The translations under genes were made by a program, and so were the position numbers. A model generated the notes under the pieces. That model saw only the letters and a program-made list of their open reading frames with translations, did no database searches and was not told where the DNA came from. Source: Panicum virgatum (taxonomy: Eukaryota; Streptophyta; Magnoliopsida; Poales; Poaceae). From it: a stretch of DNA of 64,000 bases. Shown here piece after piece: positions 23,988 to 48,225 of the stretch. Location of the stretch: the NCBI RefSeq assembly GCF_016808335.1, contig NC_053142.1, positions 3,852,918-3,916,917 on the forward strand, in the 5' to 3' direction. Position 1 is the first letter of the stretch, and each line of letters begins with the position of its first letter.

Positions 23988-24711
23988 TCCCGAGCTTTTC
24001 CACTTAAACCGGTCGCCCCCTCCTCATCCTCGCGCTGGCCGCTGCTGCCCATCCATGCGCCGCCGCCGGTGCCCTCGCTTCCCTGCACGCCGGCAGCCAC
24101 TGCTCCTCCCCTCCCCTCCGCAGTGGCCGCCGCCACTCCTCTCCTCGGCGCGGGCCGCCGCCGTTCCTCCCCTCGGCTCGCGCTCCCGCCGGCCGGAGCT
24201 CTCTCTCCCCGTCCCTCCCCTCCCCTCCGCAGCAGCTGCTGTCGTTCCTCCCCTGAGCGCGGGCTGCCGCCATCCCTTCCCTCGGCTCGCGCTCCTGCCG
24301 ACCGGAGCTCTCTCCCCCCCGCCGGCGGTGCGCGGGATCCGCCGGCGGCCGGCGGGTGCCGAGGGACGAGGCGGTGGAGGCGGGCTACGGCGGCGGCGCC
24401 GCGACACGCGGGATCCACCGGCGGCCGGCGCGGCCGACGGGTGTCGAGGCGGTGGAGGCGGGGCTGCACGCTGGGGCGGACGGGCTCACGCGACGCGGGG
24501 GCAGGACTGCGGGCGGATGGCGTCTGCGCCGAGCCGCCGTCTGCCGGAGCTCCTCCCTCGCGCCGTGCTCCCTCAGTGACGGCCGACACCCACAATCTCC
24601 CCCAAACAGGCCTTGTTAGCTTCTGTGAAAAACAGCTTCCTAGAGAATCAACCTGAGCTTTTCCAAGTAGAGCTTTTGGAGAAGCTCAAGCTCCCCCCAA
24701 ATAGAGCCTTA

Positions 24712-26214: not shown

Positions 26215-26388
26215 TGTAAGATAATATTGGAATGGCTTAAGCCCATAGGCTGCCGATGCATTGCATTATATAGAGCAAGTTACAAGAGGGATTGGTACAT
26301 GACCGATTAGTATAGAAGCAGGACTTTGAGTCCTAGTAGAATATAACAATAGCTATCGGAAACCAATCCTAATACATGTATGTCTACA
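26215..26388 (-). repeat. Probable 3' LTR of the decayed copia element
   Basis: Bounded by TGTAAG at 26215 and GTCTACA at 26388, directly next to the purine tract on the minus strand. The outer boundary is chosen by the TG/CA rule only, because no second LTR remains to compare. Confidence 0.5.
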
Positions 26389-26414
26389 TCCCCCCTCAAT
26401 CACAACTTGCATAA

Positions 26415-28000: not shown

Positions 28001-29285
28001 CTGCAACCGTGTTCTCGTACGTTGACGGATAGGAGCATGCAGTGGCCTCGGTGGACCTGGAGGTGGTGGCCGAATACGACGCCTCGAGGAGCCAGAAGTA
28101 GAGGTAGGACCTGGTGGGGCAGAACATCCAGGTGAAGCAGGGGGCGGCGTAGAGGATTCCTGCAAATTAGGAGTAGCCGCCGGCGAGTCGACGGGATCCA
28201 CTGCCGGCTCCGGGACAGACGGTGGCACCGCAGCATGTGCAAGCAAATCAGCAGGAGCCACATGTTTTGCAGGAGTGCTGAGCAGATCAACGCTAGGATC
28301 GGAGTCCGCAGGCGGCAGAGCAGCTCTGGTGTCAGTATTGCTGTCGCCTTGCTCAAACAAGACAGGTCCTCCATTAGAGTTAGGGAACACATGAAAATGC
28401 AGCGAACTTGTACCAGAATCGGAAGCTGTAGCTTGCTGACACTCCGAGGAAGCATCTGGGCTATGATCAGCACACGACAAAGAAGGCTCAAGTGAAGCGT
28501 TAGCCATAGGGTAAATACTATTATTCATATCCCCAAAAGAATTGAGCAGGCTAGGTGGTAATAGAAGAATCTCAGATTTAAGACGAGAGCCCGCATTAGG
28601 ATGAAGATTAGAAAAAGGGAAAATACTCTCATCAAATACCACATCACGAGAGATATAAACATAGCCAGTGGAGATGTCTAAGCACTTGTATCCTTTATGA
28701 AGATTACTGTAGCCAAGAAAAGCACATTGTTTGGAGCGAAACTGAAGTTTGTGTTTATTATAAGGACGAAGATTCGGCCAACAAACGCAGCCAAAAACGC
28801 GAAGAAAAGAATAGTTTGGTTTGTCATGGAAGAGACGATACAAAGGTGTAGAAAAATCAATAACTCGACTAGGAGTTCGATTGATGAGGTATGTGGCTGC
28901 CAAAAAAGCTTCATCCCAAAATTTTAAAGGCATAGAAGCTTGTGCTAAAAGAGATAGCCCAACTTCAACAATATGCCTATGTTTTCTTTCAGCCTAGCTA
29001 TTTTGCTAATGAGCATGAGGACAAGAGACATGATGAATGATGCCAATCTTTTGGAAAAAGGAAATTAGTTTTTGATATTCACCGCCCCAATCAGTTTGCA
29101 TAGTAATAATCTTTCGATTAAACAGACGCTCAACATGTTGTTGGAAATTTAGGAAAACTTGAAAAACTTCAGATCGATTTCGGAGAAGATATATCCATGT
29201 AAACTTACTAAAATCATCAATAAAGCTTACATAGTACTGATACTGACCAACTGATTGAGGACAAGGACCCCACACATCCGAAAAA
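28001..29285 (-). pseudogene. Copia integrase (core to C-terminal region)
   Basis: The core has DDFSKFTWIYLLRNRSEV and TDWGGEY, then the downstream segment INRTPSRVIDFSTPLYRLF and FGCVCWPNLRPYNKHKL. Two TAG stops (29006-29008 and 28994-28996) fall in the conserved segment between HAH and AERKHRHIVE. A Pro/Ser-rich linker (about 28030-28500) separates it from reverse transcriptase. Confidence 0.85.
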
Positions 29286-30058
29286 AATTAAATCTAATGG
29301 GTAAGAAGACACACTAGTGGATTTCGGATAAGGCAACTGATGACTCTTAGCTTGTTGACATGCATCATAAACGGCTGGACTAGATTCACGGCTGAAAGAT
29401 AAATTATTGTCTCTAATGACTCGATCAACAATGATAGAAGAGGGATGCCCCAAACGATGATGCCACAGGGAGATAGAAGGCTTGACTACATGATAAGTTT
29501 GAGCAGTGGAGGATGGTAGAGGATATAGGCCATCTTGACATCTACCTTGAAGAAGAAGGTTCTTCGTGTGCAGATCCTTCACACAAAAAAAGGTCGGATG
29601 AAACTCAAGAAACACATCATTATCAGTGGTGAATTTTTGGACTAAAACAAGGTTCTTTAGAGCTGAGGGCACATGAAGGATATTGTTAAAAGAAAAATCT
29701 CGCTTGGAGGTACAAATAATAGATTTACCAATGTGACTAATGCTCATACCTTTACCATCCGTAGCAAGGATCTGATCACCACCATGATAGCGTTCCCGAG
29801 TAGTAAGTTTGTCCAATTCACTTGTTATATGATCAGTAGATCCTGAGTCCATATACCAGTTAGAATCAATGCCATAGGAAGGCACAGCAGATGACACTGA
29901 TTTTTTAGTACTGGAAACAGGTTGACGTGCACCACCAACACCATTGCTTGGAGGAACATACTTCCTATTAAAACGATACCAGCAATTATGAACTGTATGC
30001 CCTGTACGTTCACAAAGTTGACACAAAGGAGCCTCATCTTGATCATCAAAGATACGAT
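29217..30058 (-). pseudogene. Copia gag zinc knuckle, protease and pre-integrase domain
   Basis: Starts near the zinc knuckle CQLCERTGHTVHNC (Cx2Cx4Hx4C). Next come the aspartic protease active site in WYMDSGSTDHIT and the gag-pre-integrase motif LWHHRLGHPSS. A run of seven A at 29281-29287 causes a one-base frameshift into the integrase frame. At the upstream end the frame is broken by the solo LTR; rejoining across 30058/33151 gives an in-frame SSSNRIFDDQ. Confidence 0.85.
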
Positions 30059-33000
30059 TGTGAGAACCGCCCAATTTGATACTATTTTAAACAAACCGCC
30101 GGTTATTATCATCCAGATGAGAGTTAACACGTGCTTACCGGAGAGCGTGCCACGTGTTATCCCACATCTAGAGACCCGAATAACCGACACGTCATTCATC
30201 CAAAATAATATCAAATCCGGTAGTCCCGGTATGTGCTCCAACATACGCCCAGAATCAGCATATGCACATACCGTTTACAATCGAATACATCGCCAAGAAT
30301 CCACAAAGAGCAGTTTTATAAGACCAGAGGTCACAACTTAATATTACAAATTCAACATAGGTGGGTTTGAAACTGCCCTTACAAGCCTTGGGCTCACGAA
30401 AGTCATATTAAACAGAAACTTAAAGTTTATTATATTTACATGCTCTCACGAAGCTCGATTACGATAAAGACTTACTAAAGTAATGACGCCTTGCTCAAGG
30501 ACATCATTACAGCCACCACGACCTACTCTTCCCCCGCGTTTGGATCAGCAGGGTAGAAGTGGCCGAACACCACTTCTGGCTCACCTGCAACTAGGTTTAG
30601 AAAGCAACCTGAGTACAAAAGGTACTCGCAAGACTTACGCGATTAAATATACAAGGATCATGCAATGGCTCGAGTAAAAGCTTTAAGGTTAAGTAACTAT
30701 TGCATATGCATTAGCTCCCTACACTATCACCTATCAGAACTAATTAATCTTGCCCAACCCCAAACACTTTTAGTTGATTAAGAGAGAGTAACATAATCTA
30801 TAACTCATCATAGCTGTAACCTGAACCATTCACATCATAAACGAAATTCTATGAGGAATTCATGGGATAAAGAGCTTGCTCATAACCGAGAGCGCGGCAA
30901 TTCGAATTGATTATAACCTTGCAAGGGTATACTACTTTACCCACACGACGCGAGGACCATGCGACTCACCCAACCGGCCAGAGTTGGATAAGGGGATACT
31001 CGCGTCAACCGTTCCCAACAAGGCTCGATCATTGAACCTCACACCTAGCTTACGAGTAGAGACTTAGTTCCACTAGGGACATCTCTAAACTTTCCTACAC
31101 AAAAGTCCACCTGGGGACACACTAAGCCTCTCTGCATAGCCCGTAGCCACGTAGCTAGGACTGCACATCAATGATCAAGTCAAAGATGGTAATTGGCTCA
31201 TCCATACCATTATATTGGATATGTGGTAGCACGAAAAGGTGCTCAAAACTGACATCATCCACTAGGTCCTTAATCGATCCAAGCAGACTATGCCCATGTG
31301 ATTCCATTCTCTAGGCCCTACCATTCCGCTCGAATCTCGATACTACCAAACTCTTAACAACCCAACCGAACCAGTGCGATCATGGATAAATGGTAAATGT
31401 GATCCTCCAAACCATTCATGTCTAGCGAGCAATAGAAGTATTCTAAGCAGGGCTAAGCATCTAGTCAAGTTAAATAATTAACTAACTAACTAGTGCCAAG
31501 AATAAGGATAACAAATCAAGGAAGGTTTATGCATAAAGATAGGTATAACAATGCAATACATACATACTATATATACATAGCCCACAATACCCAAGTGGAA
31601 TAGCTAAACTAAAACAGATTAGATAGGTGCAAGGAATATGCTTAGCTGCTTGCCTCGGTTAGCTTCAGACTCGACCACGAACGGGACTCCAGGCTCAGGC
31701 TCAATGGACTCGGCGGGCTCTACGGGTTCGTTCTCCGACGGTTCGGTCACTAAAATGCATGAATGCGATGCAAGAATTAAGAAATGAACTTAATGACAAG
31801 CATAAATCATGGAAATAAATGAGCATGAAGAGAACAATACAAGGAACTCACGAAAATTGGTTTTTTTGCAACAAAAGCATTTTCTTATAAATAATCATAA
31901 ACATATTAGTTTTCAGCCACTCTAAACAAGGTAAATAGAAAAGGCATGCAAACTTAACTAAACAAATCCAAGAAAATTATCATAGAACCTAGGCATGAAA
32001 ACAAAGCTAACAAAACTAGATTTACTATTTGCTCACTTTCCAGCAAAAAGTTCTATATTAAACCATTTTCAGAACATGCATAAGAAAACAAGCTAAAACT
32101 TTGATTAACGGCAAGGAAGCATGTGAACAAGTTGCACCACTGAAAACTACACCTCACAAGAAGTCTAACAAAATTTGGTTTGGCATTTTTCCAGAAGTAC
32201 ACAAATAACTAAGCATTAAACTCACTTTTGCAAGATAAAACTATAGATAAATCTATAGCTAGGTAACATGCAAAACAATATTTTTTTCTAAGTAGATTTA
32301 AGCTAGAGGAATCCAACAAAATAAGTTTCACAATTTTTGGAGCTATACACGAATTTCTACACATTTTGCAAGATTGTAGGAATATAAAACCTAAGAAAAC
32401 CCTAGCAAAATGCTAGGTGCACCCGGGTCTGGCCAGCCCAGAGGCCGACTGGACGGGCCCACTGGCCAGCGGCCCACCCAGGCCGGGTCAAGGCGAGACC
32501 GGCCTTGACCGCGGCGTGGGCGCGACCACGGCATCGCGCGCGTCGCACGGTGCGCGCGCACGCGCGTGCGCGGCGACGGCGAGCGTTGGCGGCGCGACGA
32601 GGCGGGGCCAGAGCAGGGAAGGGGAGGTGCGCACGGTGATGCGGAGGTGGCGGCGAGCCTCACCGGCGGTGACGCAGGCGAGGAGCAGCGACGGACGGGC
32701 GGCGCGACGGACAGGGGCGGCGGCGCGACGAGGGCGCTCGTCGGCAGCCCTGCAGGGAAGGAGAGGGGGCCGGGTTAGGGGCGAAATCCGAGGATGACAA
32801 CACGAGGAAGCTCCCCATGCGAGGAATCGAGGCGGCGCTCACCAGAGATGGCGAATCGCGGCGGCGGGTGGCGAGCAGAGCTTGCGGCGGCGGCAATGGA
32901 GAAGAGGGAGGGCTAGGGTTTGAGAGGGGGAGCCGTGGAGAATGAGGCCACGGCGTCGTCGTGGGGGGGGATAAGGGCGAGCGGAAGACGCGCGTGACAC

Positions 33001-33150
33001 GGAAGCCGGGGATGGCCGGCGCGTGGCCCGGGGTTGACCGGCGGCGGCGACGCGCGGAGGAAAACAGAGAGAGGAGGAGAGGGAGAGGCTGACGGGTGGG
33101 CCCGGCGTGAGATTTTTATTTTCTTTCTTTTTTTCCCTTGGGCTGTGACA
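30059..33150 (-). mobile_element. Solo LTR of a large-LTR (gypsy-like) retrotransposon, 3.1 kb
   Basis: Ends TGTGAGAACC...GGCTGTGACA are flanked by ACGAT on both sides (30054-30058 and 33151-33155). Removing the insert and one copy of ACGAT restores an in-frame copia gag reading. No internal coding region, primer site or polypurine tract is inside, so it fits a solo LTR produced by recombination between two LTRs. On its own sense strand (minus) it runs TGTCACAGCCC to TTCTCACA. A GC-rich segment (32400-33060) gives many spurious open frames. Confidence 0.75.
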
Positions 33151-33250
33151 ACGATTGCTGCTGCTCTTGTTGGATCCTCGACCAGATCCGATTTGGCCAC
33201 GACCTGGACCACGAGCACAGCCACGAGCAGAATTACAAGTACGAGGAACA

Positions 33251-34055
33251 TAAGACACTCTAGCCGAGTTAAACATAGTAGCTAGGATGAATTTTGCTTC
33301 CCTGAAGAGCACTCCACCCAACGCCCGATCGTGCCCCTCCGTCGTCAAAGCTTTGACCAAAATTTGTGAATCCGTCTCCAAGATAATACTTTGCATCCCC
33401 ATCTCTGCAACTGCGTTCAGGGCAGCAACACATGCATGAGCTTCAGCACAAAGAGCGTCCGTCACCAGCTCCTGCCAGGGACGCGCCGCCCTCAGAATCG
33501 CGCACAACAAAGCCCCAGGCTCCCTTTCTATCTTCCGCAGAAAAAGCACCATCCACATTAATTTTCCAAACTCCCTCAGGTGGTGGTTCCCAGCCAGTAC
33601 GCTGACTTCTCAACACATTTCCCCCTTCGGTTGTCGTAGACAAATCAGTATGAAGCATTACCATGCGAGCTCTGTAGACCACCACATCTGATGATGGTTG
33701 TCTTTGTTCCCCTGCATTACATTTGTTCCGAGCGTCCCACCATGCCCACAGGAGACCAACAGTCAGGGTTTCCTCTCCTCATTCAGTTTCAGAATGTGCC
33801 CGACAACCTGTTTTGCAGAAGACAAACCGCATAGGTCCATCCTGATATCTTCCAAATTCAGAGCTCTCCAGCATTCTTTGACATACTTGCATTTCAGAAA
33901 GCAGTGGCCACCATCCTCATCTAACCTCCAACAGACAGGGCACCTTGTATCAACCTCCATCCCTCTTCTAGTAATGTTTCTCCTCAATGGCAGGCTATTG
34001 TGAGCGAATCTCCAAAAAAAGTGTCTGATCTTTGGGGGACACTTTAATTTCCATA
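33251..34055 (-). pseudogene. LINE (L1-type) ORF2 3' part: zf-RVT and RNase H-like domains
   Basis: On the minus strand PKIRHFFWRFAHNSLPLRRN leads into CPVCWRLDEDGGHCFLKC, the zinc-binding reverse-transcriptase domain common in plant LINEs. It continues to an RNase H-like (RVT_3) stretch: KINVDGAFSAEDRKGAWGFV, ALCAEAHACVAALNAV, IILETDSQILVKALT, VSYVPRTCNS. Frames shift several times. The Mutator-like element inserted into this copy; its other side is at 48226. Confidence 0.8.
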
Positions 34056-34064
34056 CACAATTCC

Positions 34065-34335
34065 GAGTTTTTTTATTTTTATATTATTTTTTATTCGATT
34101 TATCAAAAATATATATCCAATTTTTTTTTGCAAAAATGTCACCCTGCCGCCGGTTCGTTTGGCGGTAATGAGATACCGCCGGATGAACCGGCGGTAAGGG
34201 TTCTGGCCCACCGCCTGACAACGTATCGCCAGTTCATCCGACGGTAAGAGGCCAGGCCAATGGGCCTTCGTGGGCCGGTAACTTACCGCCTGTTGAACCG
34301 GCGGTATCTGGCGCTTACCGCCAGATGAGCCGGCG
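34065..34335 (+). repeat. Left terminal inverted repeat and subterminal palindromes of the MULE
   Basis: About 135 bp match the right end. This is followed by repeated palindromes of the form TACCGCCGG-TGAAC-CGGCGGTA at roughly 34142-34200 and 34215-34335. The GC-rich block after it (34340-34550) is probably the transposase 5' leader. Confidence 0.88.
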
Positions 34336-34553
34336 GTAAGGCCCCCCTCTTAATCCCGCCCGCCTGCCAGCCCGCTCACTCCCCGCGCCGCCGCCCGCTC
34401 TCGCGCGCCGCCGCCCGCCAGCCCCGCGGCCCGTCCGCTCCGCCGCCCCAGTCACGGCTGGTGAGGGCCGGCCCCCGCGCGCCGGGGTTTGCGCGGCCCC
34501 CACTCCCCCGGCCGCGCGCTCGCCCTTGGTTCGCGCGCCCACTAGTGTGTCAG

Positions 34554-34864
34554 GTATATTTTTATTTTTAGTTTTACTAATAATAATTTGTAGATTAGTA
34601 TTAGAAATATTAGTGATTTAGATATAGTTTTAGATGTAGAAATTGTTTTAGTTTTAGTTTTAGATGTAGAAATATTTTTTAATATATTATATTACATAGA
34701 AAACCTATGAATATATGTCAGCAATAGTAATAGAAATTAAGATAGATGTAAATAGTAATAGAAATTGTAGAGAAACAATTAAGATAGATGTAAAAATAGC
34801 AGAATTATTTATTAGCGTTGATTAAATTTTAAGGACAAGTAATTATTGTCGTAAATATTGGCAG
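34554..34864 (+). other. Probable intron in the transposase 5' leader
   Basis: Donor CAG|GTATAT (34554) after the GC-rich leader and acceptor TTGGCAG ending at 34864, two bases before the ATG at 34867. The 311-bp interior is AT-rich with short repeats of TAGTTTTAGATGTAGAAAT and GATAGATGTAAA. Inferred from splice signals and composition. Confidence 0.5.
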
Positions 34865-34866
34865 GC

Positions 34867-37616
34867 ATGTCAGATGATTTGTATTTTCAAGTGTTCTATG
34901 GGTCAGGAGAAGTTAGATATGGTCCTAAAGGGATAGATTTGTCAGAGTTTAGCTCGATCACAAAAAAATACCCCGAGCTAGAGAGATGACTTGGATTTCA
35001 ATATCCAATTGGCTATATAAAGCTTTCAGCCTTAGTCGAGATGAACATGAGATCTCTGTCATGGCAGTGGTCAGTCGAAGGGAACCAGTATTTTGGGAGT
35101 TATTGCCGCTTGAAGGGACGCAAAACTTGAGGAACTATGTCAATATAAGTAGTAGCCGAGACTTACCGCTTGTGTTGTTTGTTCAAGCATTCGAGAAGAT
35201 TAGTTTTAGAACTGAAGCGGGCGGGGATCATGAAGGCCAGGGAGATGTATCGGAAGAAACTGAGACGATGCATGAACCTCATGAAAAAGGTGGTGAACTC
35301 GAGATTTTAGAAGATGATAGACATGCTGCACACGAACCTCATCAAGCAACTGGTCAGGCTGATGAAGGGGAAAACATTCCAGAGATAGTTGAAGAGTTTC
35401 AGAGGGAGGGTGAAGAACCGCACAATACAATGAATGATAACTCCTCGGATGATGATGATGATGATGATGACGAAGATTATCATATCCCACACAACTGGTC
35501 CGGGTATGATTTTTCAAAATTAAGTGTAAATGAAGGTGAAGTGGTACCTTGGGAGTACAGGCAAAATGAGGTATGCATCGGTTCGGTGTTTGCCAACAGT
35601 GACAACATGAAGGAAGCTATAAAACGTTGGTCGACTCTCTCTTTGCAAAGACAGTTCAAAGTTGTCAAGAGCAGTCCGAGAACATATGACGTGCGTTGTG
35701 TGAGAAGCGAATGTCCTTTCAGGGTGTATGCTTCTATGGGCAAGTGGCAGGATTTCTGGGAGGTCAAAAAAATTGTGGAGCACACATGCCTACTTGAGCA
35801 ATTAGAACCACAGCACCGCAACCTCAGTGCTGGTTTCATAGCTAACTACATGTACCCTTTGATCGTGGACAATTCTAGTTATGAACCTAAGTCAATCATT
35901 TGTGCTGTTGAGGAGGAGTTTAAATATAAAATTAGCTACAACAAAGCTTACAGAGCGAAACAGAAAGCGTTGCAGATGAGTGGGGGACGTATGAAGCTTC
36001 ATATCACAATATGCCGGCATTGCTGCACACTATATGTCTTAGAAATCCTGGTAGCTACTACGACTTGAAAACGTATCCATGTGCCCAGAAGCCTGGAAAG
36101 CAGGTACTCCAACGGTCGTTCTTGGCCTTGGGCACTTGCATTGAGGCATTTCCGCACTGCCGGCCAGTCATTTGTATAGATGAGATATTTTTGACAGGAA
36201 GGTATAAAGGCACAATCCTCACAGCTGTTGCAGCAGATGGTAACAGACAATTGTTGTCTTTGGCAATTGCCTTTGTGGAGAAAGAATCAGGGGATACTTG
36301 GTATTGGTTTTTGCAGAGGGTGAAGCAGATGATTGTCAAAAATGTAGAGAACGTGTGTTTGATTCATGATCGGCACAAGGGTATATTACAAGCAATTGAT
36401 GACATACAGAATGGTTCTACTGAGCGTAGTAGGTCTGCACTTTGGCCGGACCTAAAGAGTAGGTGGTGCATGAGGCATATGGTGTGCAAACTTTCATAGC
36501 CAGTTCAAGAACAAAACCCTTATGAAGCTATTCAAGCGGTTATGCAGCCAGAATCAGGAAAGGAAATTCAACTTCCTATGGAAAAAATTGGATGAGCTAA
36601 CAAAAAAGCAAACGGCGGAGCTAGCGAAGAGATCTGTCAATACAGAGGAGGACGACCAGGTCTCACTTGAAGACGTGGGCTTGGACGGTCCGAATGTCAG
36701 GCGCAAAAGGAGAAGGGCAATTAAGACATTCTCGGAGTGGATTGAGCACGAACCAAAAGAGAAATGGGCTTTACTGTTTGATGAAGGAGGTGCTAGGTAC
36801 GGTTTAATGACTATGAACCTAGCCGAGGTATACAATTGGGTGCTGCGTGGTGTAAGATCATTGCCACTTGTTGGGATCGTGGAGTTCTTCTTGTATCGCA
36901 CTTGCGAGTACTTTAGGGACCGTTACGCTGTGGCACAGAAAGATATGGTCGATAATCGCAAAGTTTATGGATACAAGGTTACGGAGCATATGGAGGAAGC
37001 TTTCAAAAAGGCCCGTTTACATCGGGTGACTCCAGTTGGCTCTATGGAACGTCGGTACGAGGTGATGTGTAGGGACAAAGGCCGAATGGGGGGCCGGCGT
37101 GAGAAGCATGTGCAGGAGTGTATTCTCTGTCCTGATGCTTGTATTTGTTCATGTCATAAGCCAAAACTGCTGCACCTGCCGTGCACACATGTCATTGCTG
37201 CCTGTTTTGAAGCTGGTGGACTACAGGCTCGTATGTATGTCTCAAATTACTTCATGAAGGAAACTATTTGGATGACTTGGAGGCACGAGATTTATGGGTT
37301 CCGCATCCTAGGAGACTTCATAACTGATCCTGGACACAATGCAACTTATATTATGGATCCAGATCCAGAAATGTTTCAAGGGGTGGGCCGACGCAAGAAG
37401 AAACACATTAGAAATAACATGGATCGATCGGAGGCTGGTCGAGATGTCCGCCTCTGCTCGAAGTGCCTGGAGACGGGTCATACGTACAAGGATTGTACGG
37501 CATTGAGTTATGGTGGCCGCACATATGGAGCGGGCCCATCAGAAATTGCTCCAAATCCGGCAACGCAGGCAACGGGTCGTCGTGGTCGCCGTCCTAACAA
37601 CGATGGCCTTATGTGA
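34867..37616 (+). pseudogene. MURA-type (MULE) transposase, frameshifted
   Basis: About 900 residues read across three frames. N-terminus MSDDLYFQVFYGSGEV at 34867; an acidic linker with eight Asp in a row (about 35450-35475); a MudR domain (FKVVKSSPRTYDVRC, ECPFRVYAS). The catalytic region follows with CIDEIFLTGRYKG and CLIHDRHKGI (two expected DDE aspartates). Then come a SWIM zinc finger (CICSCHKPKLLHLPCTHV), where the CxC and CxH ligands are intact, and a C-terminal CCHC knuckle (CSKCLETGHTYKDC). Single-base frame breaks fall near 34984, 35983 and 36490. Each restores the family reading when crossed. All domains survive, so inactivation looks recent. It would act in the nucleus on the terminal repeats. 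Confidence 0.9.
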
Positions 37617-37993
37617 TCGATGACAATTGTCATTTGTGTCATTCGCTATTGAATCATTTTTTATGTTAAATTATGTAATATTACGAACTAATATGTCGTA
37701 AACTGATTTCGTCTTGGCGTACGAATATTTGTTGTAATATGTGGCGCAAATGTATGTTCAACTTTGTTGCTGTAATTGGAAATTGAAGTTATATGATATG
37801 TAATTTGGTGTGCATCATTTATTAGATTATTACGTTATGTTTGATTTGGTATTTTATTCAAAATTTGTTGTATTACTTAATATTGTTATTTATGTTCTGA
37901 AATTTTATTTAGTATTTTATTACATTAATGTTATTATGCTTAATATTGTTATTTATGTTCTGAATTTTTTGTAATAAATCTTATTATACAGGC
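37617..37993. other. Spacer between transposase and PMD gene
   Basis: 377 bp of AT-rich sequence with repeated TTAATATTGTTATTTATGTTCTGAA. It should hold the transposase 3' end and the PMD promoter. No ORF. Confidence 0.5.
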
Positions 37994-40900
37994 ATGGCGC
38001 AAGAGGAAGGAGCCACCCCTGAGTTGCTCGATGCTCTCGTCGACAAGCGCAACCGGTCGTACATGTCTGCGGTCTGTGGCATAAGTTTAGGGACATTTCG
38101 GGCTCGTGTGCCCATGTCGACGATATCGATACACCGTCGCTGGGTTCCTAGGTACGGGTTACATTTGTCACATATTTTAATTGTTTCTTTAACCGTTTGT
38201 TCTAACTTGATTTTCATTTTCGCGATGCAGGCTACACGCTTCAGGTCTTCTCCCGATTGCGCGACTTGTGGAGGGAGATATGGCCGACCCTGCACGTCGA
38301 CCTAGGGACAGGGCTCCACGGTTTCAGTTCGACATGTCCCTCCTCGCAGCACTTCTCGACCGTTGGCGTCCGGAGACGCACACGTTTCACCTCCCGGTCG
38401 GTGAGATGACCCCTACTCTTCAGGACGTGGCGATGCTTCTAGGCTTGCCGTGTGCTGGACGAGCCGTGGGTGCAGAGGACGTGGGACTCTCGTGGCGCGA
38501 CGACCTTTTGGCTCGGTTCACCGGGGTTCAGCGCAACTAGCTAGCGTTGCCGTACCGGCCCTTGCCTGCGAACCACGCACACGGACCGACAAAGAGGTGG
38601 CTCCTACAGTTCAATGTGAGTACATAAATGTTGATTCTTTCGGTACTTATATTGATACGTATTTGCATTGACGACTCGTACCATTTTGAAGGCGGACTAC
38701 ATGACGGCAGACGCAGACGACTTTACGGTTGCCAGGCACTTCAAGGCCTACTTACTGTGGCTGTTCGGCTGGGTCATGTTCTGCAGCTCGCAGGGTGACT
38801 CGTGCCCCAAACAGCTCATTCCTTTGGCGAGGTCGATAGCTGATGCTCCACTTCACGAGATGCCACAGTTCAGCTGGGGTTCTGCCGTTTTGGCTGCGAG
38901 TTACAGGGGTCTTTGCACGGGCGTGACGAAGGTCTCAGCAGAGGAGCCCATTTTTGTTGTGTGTCCTCTACTATTACAGCTCTGGTCGTACGAGCGCGTT
39001 CCCGTCGGTACGCCAGAGATGGACTTCGAGCCGTACGTCCAGCTGTCCGCAGACCACGACGACGTCGACAGACCTACGATGGGTTCGTTGTGGTGCCTCA
39101 GGAGGGTACGTTACATCGTTTGTTTTACTTATTGTTACATGCCTGCACAAATGTATGATTTAGCGGTTAACTTATTTTTTTGTTATGCAGCCTTCTTGGG
39201 TCGGCGTGCAGACGAGGAAGTCGTACCACGACTTCATGGGACAGTTTGACGCTCTTGTGGACACGGACGTGAGGTGGACTCCGTACACTGCAGCCGACAT
39301 TTATGCCCGGGCACCGAGCGGTCTTTCGTCCTTATGCCTGCGAGATCACGAGTACTGGATGACGAGGAAGCCGATCCTTTACGACATCCACGTCGAGGAG
39401 TACCACGTTCACCGGGTTATGAGGCAGCTCGGTCTCTACCAGCAGACCCCGATCCCGATTGTGCACTCAGTGGAGGCCCACGTCCACAGGTACCGAATAA
39501 ATAGTTCTATTAATAATTCATCTTTTTTTATAACCTACCATTTAGCATTGAATCGCTCAATCTTTCTATTATAGGTGGACACATCAGGGCCAGCCACCAG
39601 GCTCGCGGTGGGCCGACAAGGTCCGTCCTTACGTCGACTCTTGGGCCGCGGCCCTCGACGATGTCGTTTTCGAGGATCGGCCGCACAGCGACGAGGCGTT
39701 CGCGGACTACCTACGGTGGTACCTGCCAAGGACGCGCCCACGTGTCGTGCACGTTCCACCAGAGGCTCGGATCAAGGCCGCAAGGGTGTCGGAGACGTAC
39801 CCCGTAGTTCGAGACCAGAACTTCGCTATAGCGGTACGTTTCTCTGATTGATTTTGCAGTATACAAAACTGGTTGCATATGATGTCATACGAGCGATTGA
39901 GTCCGAGGCTTCGTCGAGTATGGGCCAGTACCATGACATGACACCCGCCCAGCACCAGAGCACGCTGCAGAAGATCGTCGATATGTGCAAGCGATTCCGA
40001 CGAGCCGTGACCTGTCGTGAGGACGACACCTTCCTCCCACCTCGCAGTTCGGGGCCGGTGCCTGTGGCCGGTCCATCGTCACGACGGTCTGTGTGACACC
40101 CTAAGTGTCTGCACAGTAGTTGTGTAGTGATTGTATGCATCATGTGCTTAATTGTTTGAATAAGGATCTTTTTGTAATTATAAAAGGTTATATGTGTAAT
40201 TATGATTTTATGCAAGGTCCTTTCTGCAGTTATATTTGAATTGGGTGTGCAATTATAGCTTTTGTGGAGGGTGCTTTTGAAAAATTCAGTGCATTTATTG
40301 CTTGGCAGGAAACTTTTCAAATCAACCCAAGTTTGAAGTGAAATTTCATTGAAAAAGACAAGTTTCCTTTGAATTCAAATTCCCTTCTTTGTTTTCATAT
40401 TTAGCTCTCTATCCTTTGATCAAATAAATTTTTGCACAACATCAAAGTTGTAGATCTTGAAAAATTGAACAACTTTCATGTTGGGCACTTTTTCAGTTGA
40501 GCCTTAGTTTAAAAGTTATCCTTGTTTTACAGTTAGGTTCCTGAAATTTTCTGATATTGCAACTCAGTCCACCTTTCTTCTTCCCTCTCTGCTTCTCTGT
40601 TCAAGCGCCGCCGGCGTGTCGCCGCGCCGCCCGCCGCTCTGGGTGGCTCCCCGAGCCCCCTCCTGCTTCGCGCTGGCACCCACGCGTCGCTCCCAACCTC
40701 CTCCACCACTTCTTGGCCGCGCGCTGGCGCTCCCTTTCCTCGCTACGCCGCCCAGAACCGCCCAGCGGCCGCCACCTCGCCGTCGCGGTGGCGGGCTCGC
40801 TGCAGAGCCCCAGGCCTCCAACTCTCGCGCGCAGCAGCACCAGGGAGACTCCTTCACGCTATCTTGCACGCTCTCTCTCTCCAGTTCCCCGACCCCAATC

Positions 40901-43900
40901 CTCAGAACAGCGCCGCCGTCCGCTCAAACCCCGGCAGCTCGACCTCGCCGTCGAACCCACTCCTCCGCCCTTCCCCGCCCCAAATTAACCCCGCCAGTAG
41001 CTCCGACTTGGCCCCGCGTAGCTCACCCACCCTTTCTCCCCGCCAATCCCTCACCGGAGCGTCGCCTCCGCTGACGCCGACCGCCGCCGACCGCCGGGTT
41101 AACGCGGAGTCGCTGCCCCAGACATCCTATGACCCTTGTAACCCCCTAGATAGCTTCACCTGGACGCTTTGAAGCTTTTCCCCCACTTGTTGTCGCCAAT
41201 CCGCCGCCGGAGCGCCGCCACCGCTGAGCCACCCCTCCGCCACCGCCACTGTCATGCCGACGAGCCACCACCGGCCGTCCCAGCTCCAACCAAAGACACC
41301 TACGGGTTCCTCTCGACGCCGTGGTGCTTCTCCACCACTTTGCCCCAAACTCCGATGAGCCCCCTTGCCGGATTTAGGCCGGCCGAGCCGCCCCTGTCCT
41401 TCCCCTGCGGCCGAGGACCTCAGGTGGAAAAGAAAAGAAAGCCCAGGGGGTTATGTGAATAGAATGTGACTCATATGAATAGTGCCACTAAGGACTTCTT
41501 TGTAATTTTTGCAGTGAACTTTGAAATTCCATAGAAATTCGTAGAAAATTTGTAAAATAGCAAATCTTGATGTTTTGGAATCCTTGAGAGTAGCTCTTTG
41601 CAGTAGAACCATAATATTGTAGGTGTTTGTTGCAAGTTTTTGTTGTACAAGTTGTTTTGTTTCACTAGGTAAATAATGACTAGTTATTTAATCTTTTTCT
41701 TATCTGATGATTAAAAGCTTGTCTTGCTCTGAAGTTTTTATGGTAGTTTACTCATGTGACACTAGTTTTTCTATAAAAAATTTGTGATCAGTTCTCATGT
41801 ATAGCTATTTCTTTGATTTAAACCTTGTTTATTAGACTTTAATTATGATAAATAGTTTATGCTGCTGATAACTCATTAAAATATTTCTGAGTGATCTATT
41901 TGAATAGTGTAGCTTTTCCGTAAATTTTGAGCACGGTTCATGAATAGAACAGGAGCTAAAAATGAATCTTGTTAATCTGATGTCTGTTTTGTTTATTTTC
42001 TCAAAATTAATTCTGTGTAGATAAAATCATGAAAAATTCACAGTAGCTAACTAATCTCTGTGTATTCCTGCTGTTAAATTGTGAGCTTCTGTTTTGCTTT
42101 AGATTAACCTGTGCAATTCAATATTGTTCTTGGTGTGGTCTGAATGATTGAATTATTATGAATAAATGGTTAAATGTTTTGGCATGAAATTTACAGGTGT
42201 GGTCTGTTATCAATATAAGGACGACGGACGGGGTCGTGTTCAATATCATGACCTTTGGTGAGACCCCGTCTGTGTTGGTGAACTTGCTAAGGTCGCGGTG
42301 TGTGGTAGTGCTGGTTAAGTTTTTGAACGTACTAGCCAAATGCCGTAAATATGGTACGCGGTAAGCCTAGTAACCGATTGGACCGGGGAGTGGATATACT
42401 GACACTCTCTCTTAGAAATAGGTTTTTAATTATGTTTATGTTGATCAACACCACGGGTGCAGGGAGGAAGTTGGTGCCCTGTAGTCGGGGAGAGAGTTCC
42501 TATCCACAAGCCGGAAAGAAAGGCTAATGGTTGTTTGGAAATGACCCGACGGTGTTCCAAACGTGTGTGTTAGGTCTGCCTGGCCAGGTTAAGAAATTCG
42601 ATTCGAATCGTCTGCTTCCCACAGTTTGGGACTGCTTGATCTCTTTGCCACACAGAGTAATAAGAGCAACAATATTATGATCAATTTTGATATTTGCTTA
42701 GAGTTCTACCATGATTGGATAGTAGTTGCTTACATAGAATGGTTAATCCACTAGAATCTTGAAAGCTAAAACTTGAAGGTAAGGACCTACTTTTTATTGC
42801 TTTTTAGCAAAAGGAAAACCAGAGCCTCACAAAACCTTGCATAGTCTAGCTAAAGTGGGCTACGTATACCCGTTGACGGTTAAGTCTTGCTGAGTATTAG
42901 AATACTCAGCCTTGCTGTTGAAACCCTTTTTCAGGTATGAGTCTGGAGGACCAGGTAGCTAGTTTGCCTTGGCCCTACTCTTTGCCTCCTGGCTGGTCCG
43001 TAGAGTGGGCTACGTCTTCGGCCGGCAATGACCTTGACGAGTGATACCTTGCTTGGGCTAGCTTGGTATACTTTTGCGACGTGTTGTAGCCGTCGTGTTT
43101 TATCTTCCGCTGTTTTAACTCTGAAGTTTTACACTTAAGGCTTGTATAACTGTTTTACTTAAGTTGGTTTTTGTAATAATGGTTTGAACTAGTTTGTAAT
43201 CATTGTTATGCCTGTGTTGTAAAATTGTGGTTGTAATATCTCTGGACTCGCCTTCGTGCGGGGTATGCTTGTTCGATCCGAGATCCGGTGGTTGTATCGG
43301 GACATTACCCGACATACCAAGAATTGTTCCGTTTGAAGTGTGTTTGAGCTGGTGTTGCCCTTATGGTGATGGCCTGCGCACTTGAGCCGGGATAATTCAG
43401 GTGGTTCTGCCACAGTCTGCACCCGCGGCACAGTCAGGTCCCCCGCCACCGCCACCTGACACGATGGCGACACCTTCGGGTTGTGCAGTTCGGCCCATGT
43501 ACGTGCCGCGACCGGCACATTTGTACTCGGCAGGTAAATCGTACTCTAACCTCGTGTCACTTACAATACCGTATCATGTAAAACTTTATTCATTAACTTG
43601 TACTTCTTATTCGTGTAGCGCCCGGCTCGTCGTTGTTTCCGTCGATAGATCCCTACGGCGCCGGATCTTTCTCTCTTCGTCGTCCAATACATGATTTAGG
43701 TACGTCTAAGACCAGTTGTTAATTTGCGATAACAAGTACATTTTTAATTGAATATTGATGGATGGAAGTTTGTGAATCAGAGTACCGGTAGGTGGGAGGG
43801 ACATACGACGATGAGGAGATTCAGGAGGTGGACGACCTCGCGCAGATGGAGTGGGTGAACACATTCTTCTCTTCTGCACCGACGCAGGAGGTCGTCGGCA

Positions 43901-44113
43901 CTTCACAGCTGGGGGTGCCCCACTCGCGACGCAGGACTACAGTCAGGTGGAGCAGACGCCTGTTCCTGAGCAAGGTCGTCGGTCCACTCGCCAGACCATC
44001 CCGCCGGAGCCACTTACGTACTCGCAGCACCACACTAGGGCGGGCCAGGCTGCAGAGCGACGTGGCAGGAGGAGAGGGGGCAAGCGCGAACGCATCGAGT
44101 TTACAGGTTGTAA
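37994..44113 (+). pseudogene. Plant mobile domain (PMD, MAIN-like) protein, interrupted by a solo LTR
   Basis: PMD proteins are plant nuclear factors linked to gene silencing (MAIN, MAIL1) that also travel in transposons. Inferred exons: 37994-38151, 38231-38615, 38692-39105, 39191-39489, 39575-39833, 39860-40091 plus 43420-43533, 43619-43699, and about 43777-44113. Joins keep phase. Landmarks: LHASGLLPIARLVEGDM; FDMSLLAALLDRWRPETHTF; LPVGEMTPTLQDVAMLLGLP (PMD core); FKAYLLWLFGWVMFCS; then the WTHQGQPPGSRWADKV region. Defects: TAG at 38534-38536 after VQRN, a 3.3-kb solo LTR in exon 6, another TAG at about 43786, and a frameshift near 43930. The C-terminus is Arg/Gly-rich. The acidic and basic tail is not part of the PMD core. 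Confidence 0.85.
40092..43414 (+). mobile_element. Solo LTR inserted in PMD exon 6, 3.3 kb
   Basis: Ends TGTGACACCC and TTCTGCCACA with a perfect 5-bp duplication GTCTG (40087-40091 and 43415-43419). Taking out the insert joins CGACGGTCT to GCACCCGCG in the PMD frame. No gag, pol, primer site or purine tract inside. A GC-rich zone (40600-41420) and the wording near 42890-42950 resemble the other large LTRs here (30059-33150, 56147-59836). Class inferred as gypsy-type. Confidence 0.82.
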
Positions 44114-44119
44114 CTTGTT

Positions 44120-44600
44120 AATTACTTTGTTCCGTCATACTATGTTATGTATGCATGTGCAGACTATGATTGGATGTGTCCATTACGTACCATTATGATG
44201 AGTAGGCCGGTGTAGTGTTTCGGGCGATGGTATATGTCCGTGCAGTGAAATTATGACGATTAGGCCAGTGCCGTGCAGTGTTCCAGGCGATGGGATATGT
44301 CGGGGCAGTGCAATAATCATGAGTGAGCGCTGTAGAGCGTGCAAGTGCTGAAGTCAAGAGCAGTGAGATGTCGTGTCGTTGTTTAAAGTGGGAGGAGTGA
44401 GCGGTGTTGAGCGTGCGAGGGTACAAATCAAGAGCAATGAGAGGTCGTGTCCGTGTTTAAAGTAGTAGGAGTGAGCGCTGTGGAGCGTGTGAATACTGTA
44501 GGCTTTTCATGTGCATTTACGGTCCACACTCTGGGTATCAGACCTTTGTGCGCCTATAAATACTCACCAGTTTGTGAACTCCCAGCACCACTCAAACACC
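44120..44600 (+). promoter_or_regulatory. Upstream region of the first GRF-type gene, with internal repeats and TATA box
   Basis: Words GTTTAAAGT, GAGTGAGCGCTGTGGAGCGTG and AGAGGTCGTGT recur two or three times in 44325-44490. A TATA box (TATAAATA, 44555-44562) lies 57 bp before the ATG at 44620. The same words recur upstream of the next gene (45600-45830). Confidence 0.65.
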
Positions 44601-44619
44601 AAAGCTCATTGTATACCCA

Positions 44620-45326
44620 ATGTCTGGAGGTGGGTCTAGCGGGAAGAATTACTACGGTTTTGGGAAAGGAAAAGGGGGAAGAAAGGGAGACCCCATAATA
44701 TGGGAGGGGCCTCTTGGACCTGATTCCTTTTCGGAACCAGTATTTGAGTTTCCGCCACAGCACAAGAGTGAATTTACCAATGAAACTCCTCTTCGACAAT
44801 ACGATAACTGTAGAGAACCGTGGCCAAAATGCAGACATGGTGAGGACTGCTTAGTGCAGATGTGCACCGACGGGATGGATGGCGGTCGGCGTTTCTTCAA
44901 ATGCCCACACACATGGGTAATACTCGGTTGTTTTATTTCTTTATCTTCATTGAGACACCTTACATGAAATTTGTTTTGCAGTCTTCAGATGCTCCAGAAA
45001 ACTGTGGGTTTACCAAGTGGGTCGATCCTGCACCAATTGATTCAGTTCAGGAGTTCATCGAGTACCTCCAGATAAAGATCTTTGATCTGGAGTGCAAGGT
45101 GAACCATTACGAGGAAGTGAGCGAGAGTAACAAAGACAATGAAGATGATGATACCAGCAATGCTGCCGCCTCACAAGATGAACCATGCACTATTCCTTAC
45201 TGCAACTGCCCTTGTCACAAGAACAAGGGCCCTGCCCCTCCGGCACCACCGCCTGCGCCACCTGCAATGGGTGGATACTGCGGAGAAGGCTCAATGCAGT
45301 TTGCTACGTGGGGGTACGGCTATTAG
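44620..45326 (+). CDS. GRF-type zinc-finger protein in the MULE (gene 1)
   Basis: Two exons (44620-44916, 44982-45326) give 213 aa; the intron is GT-AG and phase 0. The GRF-like finger spans about residues 68-113: WPKCRHGEDCLVQMC, then GGRRFFKCP, then CGF and KWVD after the splice, with Cys71, Cys77, Cys82, Cys95 and Cys107. GRF fingers bind single-stranded DNA in proteins such as APE2 and TOP3A. The rest is a Gly/Lys-rich N-terminus, a short predicted coiled coil (about 115-150), an acidic patch, CTIPYCNCPCHKNK, and a Pro-rich, Gly/Tyr-ending tail. The frame is intact, unlike the neighbouring transposase and PMD gene. Function is unknown; I do not claim a role in transposition. Confidence 0.75.
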
Positions 45327-45930
45327 GACTACCTAGTGCTAGTGACATGCTGCATCGTTGTATTTGTTGGGTTTTTTTAAATTACCTAAGGCATGTTAGT
45401 TTAGATCAGAATCTGTTTACCGTAGTTGCAACAGGTTCTGCCATGCCACTGCATTTCTGCTGTGTGTTTCATTAACGTTGTATTATGATGTAATTCCTAT
45501 GGTTTACATTGTGACGATTACGCCGGTACCGTGTAGTGTTCCGGGCAATGGGATGTGTCAGGGCAGTGCAATAATCACGAGTAGGTCGATGCAGTGACAG
45601 TACGACGAGTTTAAAGTGGGCGATGCGATGAGTAGGTCGATGCAATAATCCGTGTTTAAAGTGGTAGCAGTGAGCGCTGTGGAGCGTGCGAGTACTGATG
45701 GTACGAGCAGTGAGAGGTCCTGTTGTTGTTTAAAGTGGGATGAGTGCGCACTGTGGAGCGTGCGAGTGCAGAACCGTGGATGACTGTGGAGCAGTGAGAG
45801 GTAATATCCGTGTTCAAAGTGCTTGGACATGCAGGCAGCCCTGCATGTATAAAAGAGCACCTTGTGGTTCCTGAGAGCACAGACTTGCAATTCAGGTTCC
45901 ACTTTTTTTAATTAGCCCAAACAAACAGCT
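45327..45930 (+). promoter_or_regulatory. Region between GRF-type genes 1 and 2: shared 3' motif, repeats and TATA box
   Basis: ACCTAAGGCATGTTAG at 45384-45399, 58 bp after the gene 1 stop, is repeated after gene 2 and, inverted, after gene 3. The 45600-45830 part repeats GAGCGCTGTGGAGCGTGCGAGT and GTTTAAAGTGG, as upstream of gene 1. TATAAAA (45848-45854) is 77 bp before the ATG of gene 2. Confidence 0.65.
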
Positions 45931-46403
45931 ATGAGCTCCTCATTCTCCCGGGCAGCTTTCCGTCGGGAAATGGAGGCTAATTTAGGACCCTCTCCTAACG
46001 ATCCCAATAGATGTATTACAGATTGCAAGGTATGGCCGAAAGGTGTAGAGCCACCAGATTGCTATTGCCAAATGCGTTGTGTTCCGAACATATCTCGTGA
46101 TTACGAGACTTTTGGCCAAAGGTATTGGTGTTGCAAGAATATCGAGGAAGTCCAAAAAAGAGGTGCAACATCACAGGTATAGATTAATTTGTAAATATGC
46201 TTTTATTATTTTTATTAATTTTGAATCGTTTCTTGTTTACAAAAGTATGCTGGTGTCATTTCCATGAGTGGATTGACACGTGGATCACTCATCATGATCA
46301 GCAATATATGGAGTGGTTGAAGAAGGTGAATGAAGATTTACGCAAAGGCGAGCGTGCAAAACCAGACATCGCGGGACGTGACAAGGGTACTGCTCGTGAA
46401 TGA
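45931..46403 (+). CDS. Small Cys-rich GRF-like protein in the MULE (gene 2)
   Basis: Exons 45931-46162 and 46246-46403 give 129 aa. I chose the donor at 46163 (GAG|GTGCAA) rather than 46176 (CAG|GTATAG) because only it keeps the second exon in the frame that reads CWCHFHEWIDTW to a clean stop. The Cys pattern is CYCQMRC (44-50), YWCC (66-68) and CWCHFHEW (79-86), a compressed version of the C-C-C plus F/W-x-W layout seen in GRF fingers. The end is a charged Lys/Glu helix. Frame intact. No catalytic motif. Related in layout to genes 1 and 3 rather than close in sequence. Confidence 0.62.
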
Positions 46404-46853
46404 TTGATGTTGTACTGCTCCGTCTGAATAAATAATGTAACATTTTTTCGAATTACCTAAGGCATGTTAGGTTTAGTATTGGACCTCGTTACCGTAGCTT
46501 GCAACAGGTCCTGACATGTCATGTCATGTGTTCTGTGCGTTGAATTGTGTGGACCACTATTTAATTTGTGTTCAATGTTTGAACGGTGATTGTTTTGATT
46601 ATTTTTATTGTGTGTACTGGCCGATATATGCCCATGGAGTTGTTATCGCGTCGGTCTGAAAAGTTTATTTGTAGGGCGATGCTTCTGAAAAATCTAGTTG
46701 TAGCTAGTACAAATTACACAATGCAGATTAATTTGACATTGAAATTACAATAACAATTGCACTGGCATGTACATGGAACACGCTAACGTCGTGTTCCATC
46801 TAGACCTAACATGCCTTAGGGAATATGAAATTCGAACATTACATGATAGTCAT
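46404..46853. other. Convergent 3' region between genes 2 and 3
   Basis: Carries the shared 3' motif in both orientations: ACCTAAGGCATGTTAG at 46455-46470 for gene 2 and CTAACATGCCTTAGG at 46806-46820 for gene 3, which runs on the other strand. The rest is AT-rich, with no ORF. Confidence 0.6.
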
Positions 46854-47440
46854 CTACTGAGTGCACCGAGGATATTTCCCCTTCCTAATAGCCTCGGGTC
46901 CCGCCTCCTTCGCACAGTGGGCCCTCTCTCGCTTCCTCTCCCTATCAGCTTCACGCTCCTCCGCCTGCCGACGTTCCACTTCTGCGAACCTCTTCTGAAT
47001 CTTTTCTTTATCTTTCTTGCGCTTCTCCTCCATTTTTTCCTCTTGCAGCATTCGCTGCCACCTTTCCGCAGCCCACCTTGCTTCGCGCTCAACGTGTTCC
47101 TTAGCTTCGGTCGATTGCTCCGTGTCCAGCCACTGTATGAAATCACAAAGAGGTGGTGGACTCTATTTCCAAGCCGAGTTAGAATTAACTTACTGAACTC
47201 CGAAGACGCAAACTACATAGTGCGAGGTGATACCTTCGCTTTGTCCTTGCCGTAGCGCTTTGGCGGATCGTACTCGTAGTTCTCACACATGAAGAACCTC
47301 CTGCCGAAGTCATCGCCCAAAACTTTGGACTCCATCAGCTTGCACAACGAACCGCAGATGCACATTGGAACCTGCACTCCTTGAGGCACAGGTTCTCTAA
47401 TCTTGTTCCACAGAATGTAGGTAGAACCAGAGAAAGACAT
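46854..47440 (-). CDS. GRF-like protein with long charged helix in the MULE (gene 3)
   Basis: Exons 47440-47234 and 47132-46854 give 161 aa, phase 0, GT-AG intron. The N-terminus has VPMCICGSLCKL (Cys27, Cys29, Cys33) and GRRFFMCENY (Cys52), then WLD right after the splice: the GRF signature of CxC, GRxFxxC and W-x-D. From about residue 85 it becomes a long Lys/Arg/Glu helix (EEKMEEKRKKDKEKIQKRF), probably coiled coil or basic. A TATA box (TATAAATA on the minus strand, 47515-47522) lies 75 bp upstream of the ATG. An upstream in-frame Met exists but falls at or before the TATA box, so the ATG at 47440 is preferred. Converges on gene 2. Confidence 0.72.
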
Positions 47441-47514
47441 GGTGGTCGAGCGGGGATGGCTAAAGACTTCGTATGAGATGGCTATTGACTTCATATGAGA
47501 TGGGGGCGATGTTC

Positions 47515-47522
47515 TATTTATA
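47515..47522 (-). promoter_or_regulatory. TATA box of GRF-type gene 3
   Basis: Minus-strand CTATAAATAG, the same sequence class and spacing as the boxes before genes 1 and 2. Confidence 0.6.
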
Positions 47523-47565
47523 GATGGAGCTATTTGGTCTATAGGCATGGTTCACGCATGTCTAT

Positions 47566-47940
47566 CGCCATTTCAAACGGCGGTAGGTACTCCCACATTT
47601 TTAATTATTGTGGGGGTGCAGAAGAATCTGATGCAAGATGACAGGACATCGAAATCGTAATTGAAACTCATGAATATCTCATAAAAATATATTTTCACAT
47701 AATATTAGAGTTAAATCTAATTTTTATAAATTTTTTAAAAAATATTTCCCTAACATCCGCTATCTCTATTATTTTCTGAAATATCTCTAAACGTAAAGAA
47801 AATAATTACAGTTCAGACAGCCTATAAAATAATTATACAATTAATTACAGCAGTGAGAGCATATAAAATAATTAAAACATATAAAATAATTAAAAAAAAT
47901 TGTGGGAATACCTACCGCCGTTTCAAACGGTGGTAGGGCG
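47566..47940. repeat. Inverted repeat nested in the right arm of the MULE
   Basis: CGCCATTTCAAACGGCGGTA plus GGTACTCCCACA (from 47566) faces TGTGGGAATACC plus TACCGCCGTTTCAAACGG (to 47940). About 45-bp arms enclose an AT-rich core of about 280 bp. It could be a small MITE or part of the subterminal array. Confidence 0.6.
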
Positions 47941-48216
47941 CTGGCCGTCTACAGGGCAGCTACAGCCGGCTATAGCCGCGCTGTAGCCCGGCGGTAGCAC
48001 TTACCGCCGTTTCGTTTGACGGTATGGAGCTACCGCCGGATCAAACGGCGGTAAGTTCCATGGGCCGTGGGCCAAGGATCTTACCGCCGGTTCATCCGGC
48101 GGTAACTCCTTACCGCCAAACGAACCGGCGGCAGGGTGACATTTTTGCAAAAAAAAATATAACGACATATATTTTTGATAAATCGAATAAAAAATAATAT
48201 AAAAATAAAAAAATTC
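47920..48216 (-). repeat. Right terminal inverted repeat and subterminal palindromes of the MULE
   Basis: Mirror of the left end: five or more copies of TACCGCCG...CGGCGGTA between 47925 and 48130, then CAGGGTGACATTTTTGC, an A/T-rich stretch, and ATAAAAAAATTC at 48216. Confidence 0.88.
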
Positions 48217-48225
48217 CACAATTCC

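Follow-up and report, generated by a model that had tools for sequence, protein, structure and literature searches.

A Mutator-like element of switchgrass in which three small GRF-type genes accompany the transposase and PMD genes and probably belong to the element's own gene set

The accessory genes known in plant Mutator-like elements (MULEs)—mudrB, VANC, KIU, and PMD—are few and mostly unexplained. The capture of PMD-C by grass MULEs has been published, and the relevant portions of that report describe the PMD relatives MAIN and MAIL1 as acting in silencing and propose an anti-silencing use of the PMD by MULEs (PMC5418596); VANC, for its part, recognises short noncoding motifs according to the sections of PMC13317346 devoted to it. 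Here we analyze a stretch of 64,000 nucleotides of Panicum virgatum (NC_053142.1, positions 3,852,918 to 3,916,917, forward strand), hereafter called the window, which holds a MULE bearing the transposase gene MURA, a PMD gene, and three small genes named GRF1, GRF2, and GRF3. We consider it quite probable that this copy is a defective member of a multicopy switchgrass PMD-MULE family, the full form of which has five genes in about 11 kb, and that the GRF genes belong integrally to that family as accessory genes, kept by selection. Among the papers listed by open-access searches naming GRF, none was on GRF genes in MULEs, and neither PMC6446971 nor PMC13317346 has the term GRF in its main text; three related GRF-type genes evolving like a transposase would be a new case for testing helper function. 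The element and its genes, in window coordinates, are the following:

34056 to 34064, no strand: left 9-bp target-site duplication CACAATTCC, read in the sequence
34065 to 48216: MULE, 14.15 kb including a later solo long terminal repeat (LTR), delimited by its terminal inverted repeats (TIRs) and the 9-bp duplication
34065 to 34246, plus strand: left TIR, 86.6% identical to the right TIR over 187 columns
34986 to 37616, plus strand: MURA transposase gene, broken by frame changes in the window copy
37994 to 44121, plus strand: multi-exon PMD gene, interrupted by the solo LTR and bearing an in-frame stop at 38538, its last exons lying after 43419
40092 to 43414, no strand: solo LTR (TG...CA), 3323 bp, flanked by the 5-bp duplication GTCTG at 40087-40091 and 43415-43419
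44620 to 45326, plus strand: GRF1, exons 44620-44916 and 44982-45326, 213 amino acids, intact
45931 to 46404, plus strand: GRF2, exons 45931-46178 and 46246-46404, broken in the window copy
46854 to 47440, minus strand: GRF3, exons 47440-47234 and 47162-46854, 171 amino acids, intact
48031 to 48216, minus strand: right TIR, pairing with the left one
48217 to 48225, no strand: right 9-bp target-site duplication CACAATTCC, a perfect match to the left one

To find other copies we searched the P. virgatum genome with the first 136 bp of the element, which search returned 59 matches from the 40 candidates scored of 676, so that the copy number is a lower bound. Forty of these matches were near-complete TIRs, the rest being short secondary matches, and the 40 TIRs resolved into 32 loci: the window copy, seven pairs of ends, and 24 single ends. 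We examined 27 of the 32, chosen largely by rank and representing close, TIR-selected copies: the window copy, all seven pairs, and 19 of the single ends. Single-end loci were followed for 10 kb only, and a gene was counted as present at half its length or more. GRF3 was found at 23 of the 27 loci, GRF2 at 19, PMD (any of three parts) at 18, GRF1 at 16, and MURA at 14, while at least one GRF gene was present at 13 of the 14 loci bearing MURA. All five genes occurred at 10 loci, in the order MURA–PMD–GRF1–GRF2–GRF3 (the last in antisense) and as complete exons with introns, which result upholds the proposal of a first-pass annotation that the five genes travel together. Two further loci, L019 and L021, have PMD and the three GRF genes; up to the 10-kb limit, L021 gave no MURA match past about 6.6 kb and L019 a match of 119 bp only past about 6 kb, so that MURA is missing, displaced, or beyond reach there, the long unmatched stretches being perhaps nested insertions. 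At L033, L023, L034, and L036, the only complete genes found were GRF3, or GRF2 plus GRF3; two of these loci are short elements, about 2.5-2.7 kb in length, namely L033 and L023, the latter of which also holds part of PMD.

Inverted ends together with a target duplication of about 9 bp, by which a MULE is recognised, were present in the window copy and likewise in the sister copies, and the inverted repeats and perfect duplication first described at 34065 and 48216 were confirmed. At 12 sister loci of the set first retrieved, inspection by eye of the duplications at both ends revealed ten exact 9-bp repeats, one of 10 bp, and one of 8/9. The length and identity of TIRs lying 14 kb apart, along with the ends common to the sister copies, leave no doubt that the element is real. 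The initial description of a 14-kb element that moved as a single block requires a correction: the limits hold, but 3.32 kb of the 14.15 kb are the later solo LTR, and what moved as one is the native element of about 11 kb, the sisters having the same ends and gene order and their own duplications. The solo LTR is younger than the MULE: its unsplit site was seen at nine sister loci, and of the 27 loci of the family only the window copy contains the LTR at an identity of 85% or above, two others having weaker matches to it (71% and 78%).

For the selection test, we classed the changes among copies as private (in one copy) or shared (in at least two), and calculated an omega-like value as the ratio of nonsynonymous (N) to synonymous (S) changes relative to that which the spectrum of private changes in noncoding sequence (466 changes, in CG, CHG, and other contexts) would lead one to expect; the variants were treated as independent, which is an approximation. 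The shared changes gave values well below 1 for MURA (69 N, 46 S, 0.54, p 0.0009), for PMD (22 N, 21 S, 0.51, p 0.02), and for the pooled GRF genes (49 N, 32 S, 0.56, p 0.008), the shared counts of GRF and MURA showing no difference (p 1.0). For the small genes taken singly, on which the first-pass annotation had called for a dN/dS comparison, the values were 0.51 for GRF1 (18 N, 12 S, p 0.058), 0.39 for GRF2 exon 1 (6 N, 5 S, p 0.10), and 0.66 for GRF3 (25 N, 15 S, p 0.14). When all the genes were taken together, the shared and private changes differed (p 0.014). Read-through translations of introns were also tried as a neutral yardstick and set aside: divergence was smaller in the exons for 8 of 10 pairs, but few of the sequences were independent. 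Our argument rests on the likeness of the GRF genes to MURA and PMD more than on single values.

Among near-complete genes, those free of stops and frameshifts numbered 0 of 10 for MURA, 2 of 7 for the three PMD exons, 8 of 15 for GRF1, 11 of 17 for GRF2 exon 1, and 12 of 23 for GRF3, counts that ignore starts and splice sites, some of the copies so counted being without a start codon or a splice site. Per kb, the disabling changes amounted to 1.43 in MURA, 1.07 in the PMD exons, 0.78 in GRF1, 2.26 in GRF2 exon 1, and 1.10 in GRF3, and the probability of remaining intact by chance was about 0.46-0.61 in the case of GRF1 and 0.54-0.59 in that of GRF3. The small genes are therefore open beside decayed large ones because the gene lengths differ, the decay per kb being broadly similar, and we rejected open GRF frames as a sign of selection since short genes stay open by chance. 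The first-pass annotation had read this contrast as a clue that the small genes were no passengers, and had credited all three with open frames; gene length explains the pattern, and only GRF1 and GRF3 are open, GRF2 being broken here. That the GRF genes are not passengers is nonetheless supported by their conserved order and by the low omega-like value of the shared changes.

Several observations weigh against the GRF genes being selected constituents of the family. No single GRF gene reaches 0.05 in the shared-change test, and the private values also lie below 1, at 0.79 for MURA (p 0.014) and 0.76 for the pooled GRF genes (p 0.02), with PMD at 0.84 (p 0.15), GRF1 at 0.71, GRF2 at 0.88, and GRF3 at 0.74; the calibration may therefore be biased, or some private changes may be older than the insertion. 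Taken singly, neither GRF (p 0.28) nor MURA (p 0.08) nor PMD (p 0.16) shows a significant contrast between shared and private changes. The test was moreover run three times as the loci grew in number (18, 23, and 27, window included), and in the 18-locus run the shared value of GRF2 was 1.30 on 5 changes, the other shared values of the 18- and 23-locus runs all being below 1 (pooled GRF 0.61, p 0.04, at 23 loci). Copies with the same TIR but no GRF gene—a finding named at the outset as adverse—do occur at 4 of the 27 loci (E1, E12, L028, and L031); E1 and E12, shorter forms with both ends present, are without other genes as well, and L028 and L031 were seen from one end. Of these, E1 has MURA and part of PMD with no GRF gene, yet displays a 9-bp duplication. 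A GRF2 match is absent from L024 and from L025, which latter locus has the other four genes; the two are perhaps a sublineage. Lastly, none of the ten near-complete MURA copies among the loci examined is intact, and the alignment of GRF1 with NEIL3, described below, is the sum of two weak stretches (E 0.05 and 0.8).

Regarding the identity of the genes, MURA, though broken in the window copy, has the MULE DDE transposase domain (PF10551, 63.8 bits, cut-off 27.6) along with DBD_Tnp_Mut (PF03108, 32.5 bits, cut-off 25), and the PMD domain PF10536 was found in three reading frames, which represent exons of the PMD gene, so that the element is a PMD-MULE; the intact transposase that defines an autonomous MULE was found in none of the copies just mentioned. 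The exon limits of PMD were read by eye, its first and last exons being putative. GRF1 matches the Pfam GRF zinc finger PF06839 with 30.1 bits (cut-off 25.9), whereas GRF3, at 21.6 bits (E 2.3e-4), falls below that cut-off and is therefore named GRF-like; for GRF2 no Pfam match was obtained with a product whose splice donor, placed after 46162, was later corrected. That donor was rejected because the sisters show a common one after 46178, together with a loss in the window copy: 22 bp at the start of GRF2 exon 2, present in nine aligned sister copies, are gone, a deletion that puts the gene out of frame when it is spliced at the sites common to the copies. The GRF2 profile aligns with that of GRF3 (hhalign probability 85%, E 6.3e-6), while GRF1 aligns weakly with GRF3 (12.5%) and to no useful extent with GRF2 (0.6%); by BLAST the three proteins share 25-30% identity over 76-108 amino acids, GRF2 being there in its first, wrong splice.

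The Cys/His pattern of GRF1 can furthermore be aligned with that of the GRF fingers in NEIL3, the alignment running across the GRF1 intron (whole-sequence E 2.6e-5). The NEIL3 fingers bind single-stranded DNA according to the part of PMC9266487 that concerns them, and by analogy from this alignment the GRF proteins may bind zinc and single-stranded DNA. A long helix is predicted for a Urochloa relative of GRF3; the structure models made for one relative each of GRF1 and GRF3, with mean predicted local distance difference test scores of 54 and 60, were too weak for a fold search, and a comparison of GRF3 with solved structures gave no clear relative (best E 0.21).

The following repeated short motifs and modules lie near the ends of the element and around the GRF genes:

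34145 to 34338, no strand: five subterminal palindromes TACCGCC-N9-GGCGGTA, 0-2 mismatches, from a pattern search
44250 to 44500, plus strand: module upstream of GRF1, with a counterpart upstream of GRF2 (families D1 and D2)
45384 to 45399, plus strand: 16-nt motif ACCTAAGGCATGTTAG 3' of GRF1, 0 mismatches
45508 to 45773, plus strand: module upstream of GRF2, 83-87% identical to that upstream of GRF1
46455 to 46470, plus strand: the same 16-nt motif 3' of GRF2, 0 mismatches
46806 to 46821, minus strand: the same 16-nt motif 3' of GRF3, one mismatch
47563 to 48133, no strand: six subterminal palindromes, 0-1 mismatch, one of them upstream of GRF3, plus one weak match

The 23-bp palindrome, at up to 3 mismatches, gave 14 matches in the 64 kb against 1.19 expected, and the 11 with no more than 2 mismatches are all within the element. 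The 16-nt motif lies 33-58 nt past all three GRF stop codons, in sense with the genes; at up to 3 mismatches it has 3 matches in the window, a number equalled in 1 of 100 shuffles, and in the 18 loci then compared, 14 of the 15 sister GRF3 genes have it, the exception being L023. The parts common to the upstream modules of GRF1 and GRF2 measure 75 and 105 nt. Because of the shared 3' motif, the upstream modules, and the protein identity, the three genes look like duplicates made within the element.

A P. virgatum protein record, P0090, is 96% identical to GRF3. In other species, relatives of GRF3 over 90-94% of its length are 68% identical to it in Panicum miliaceum, 67% in Urochloa, and 48% in Stipagrostis, and a relative of GRF1 occurs in Urochloa humidicola (54% over 87% of the length). 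In P. miliaceum one gene model, P0188, joins the first PMD exon (79% over 53 amino acids) to GRF2, which model supports a putative PMD–GRF2 linkage in a second species; a tblastn search of P0188 for TIR remnants at E 1e-3 found none. Among viral contigs there was neither a GRF1 relative nor an exact match to a 25-base TIR pattern.

If the GRF genes are indeed selected accessory genes, selection would act on the source copies, each copy decaying more or less freely once inserted. MURA would cut and join at the TIRs and the GRF proteins would act in trans with it, their likeliest role being the binding of exposed single strands or of the palindromic ends during transposition; alternatively, they might shield the element from silencing, alone or along with PMD. 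More tentatively, we would propose that the GRF trio and PMD might together constitute a helper complex encoded by the transposon, maintained during grass evolution and recognising either the repeated motifs of the element or its exposed single strands, and that the panicoid proteins listed as 'GRF-type domain-containing', together with their uncharacterised relatives, might be largely products of this MULE lineage; this extension we regard as possible, though doubtful. The fact that MURA, PMD, and three zinc-finger genes travel as one set does suggest that some little-understood grass genes are transposon helpers, and, if so, genes now annotated as ordinary or uncharacterised would be reclassified.

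A function mainly in anti-silencing, in which the GRF proteins and PMD would recognise short repeated motifs and keep the element unmethylated, by analogy with VANC in VANDAL, is an alternative within the same interpretation. The silencing roles of MAIN and MAIL1, the use of PMD proposed for MULEs, and the motif recognition by VANC, all cited above, are in its favor, as are the repeated short motifs of the window element; the GRF fingers that we found described, however, belong to DNA-repair proteins, and we hold such a function to be rather unlikely as the principal one. Less probable still is an origin of the GRF genes as Pack-MULE cargo, captured from the host and amplified without a function for the element. 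The capture of host fragments by MULEs is well known (PMC13317346, in the part treating it), about half of the near-complete GRF copies are broken, four loci are without any GRF gene, and low private values mean that a low omega need not denote a function in the element. Nevertheless, cargo of that kind hardly accounts for the constant order with complete exons and introns at 10 of 27 loci, for a pooled shared value like that of the transposase, for the PMD–GRF2 linkage of one P. miliaceum gene model, or for the proteins of Urochloa (54-67%) and Stipagrostis (48%) that are related to GRF1 or GRF3 along 87-94% of the length. Host domestication in the window copy, finally, to which the open GRF1 and GRF3 might point, is most improbable in view of the numbers of equally undamaged copies elsewhere, of disabling rates per kb like those of MURA and PMD, and of the chance intactness of both genes.

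As to the neighborhood, ATP-sulfurylase and PUA-like domains lie about 4 kb apart on the minus strand at 11275-16409 of the window, with two similar open frames between them, one having an IQ motif. Pieces of a Copia-type retrotransposon (gag, gag-pre-integrase, and reverse transcriptase) occupy 20401-30086 on the minus strand, and an RVT_3 reverse-transcriptase-like domain (32842-33609, minus strand) is located some 450 bp beyond the left terminus of the MULE.

With the host repair enzymes NEIL3 and APE2, the element shares the type of finger, whereas its GRF proteins are small and stand-alone, with helical or Pro-rich tails. The KIU/Kaonashi MULEs with a Ulp1 gene resemble it in having long kept an extra gene, but that gene encodes a protease domain instead of a GRF finger and is described in non-TIR MULEs, according to the relevant sections of PMC13317346. 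VANDAL with its VANC anti-silencing genes, as portrayed there, is alike in the combination of a transposase with extra genes and possibly in motif-recognising accessory proteins; VANDAL is a non-TIR element in that source, yet has TIRs of 46-174 bp in the table of PMC6446971. Maize MuDR, in the account of the latter paper, likewise joins a transposase to a separate accessory gene, mudrB, where the present element has three related genes and PMD. Also among the closest systems are the PMD-carrying plant MULEs (the MULE-Monocots, MDR, MUDRAVI2, and MUDR groups in the table of PMC6446971), which resemble the window element in transposase plus PMD gene, 9-bp duplications, and TIR length, and from which it differs in adding three GRF-type genes.

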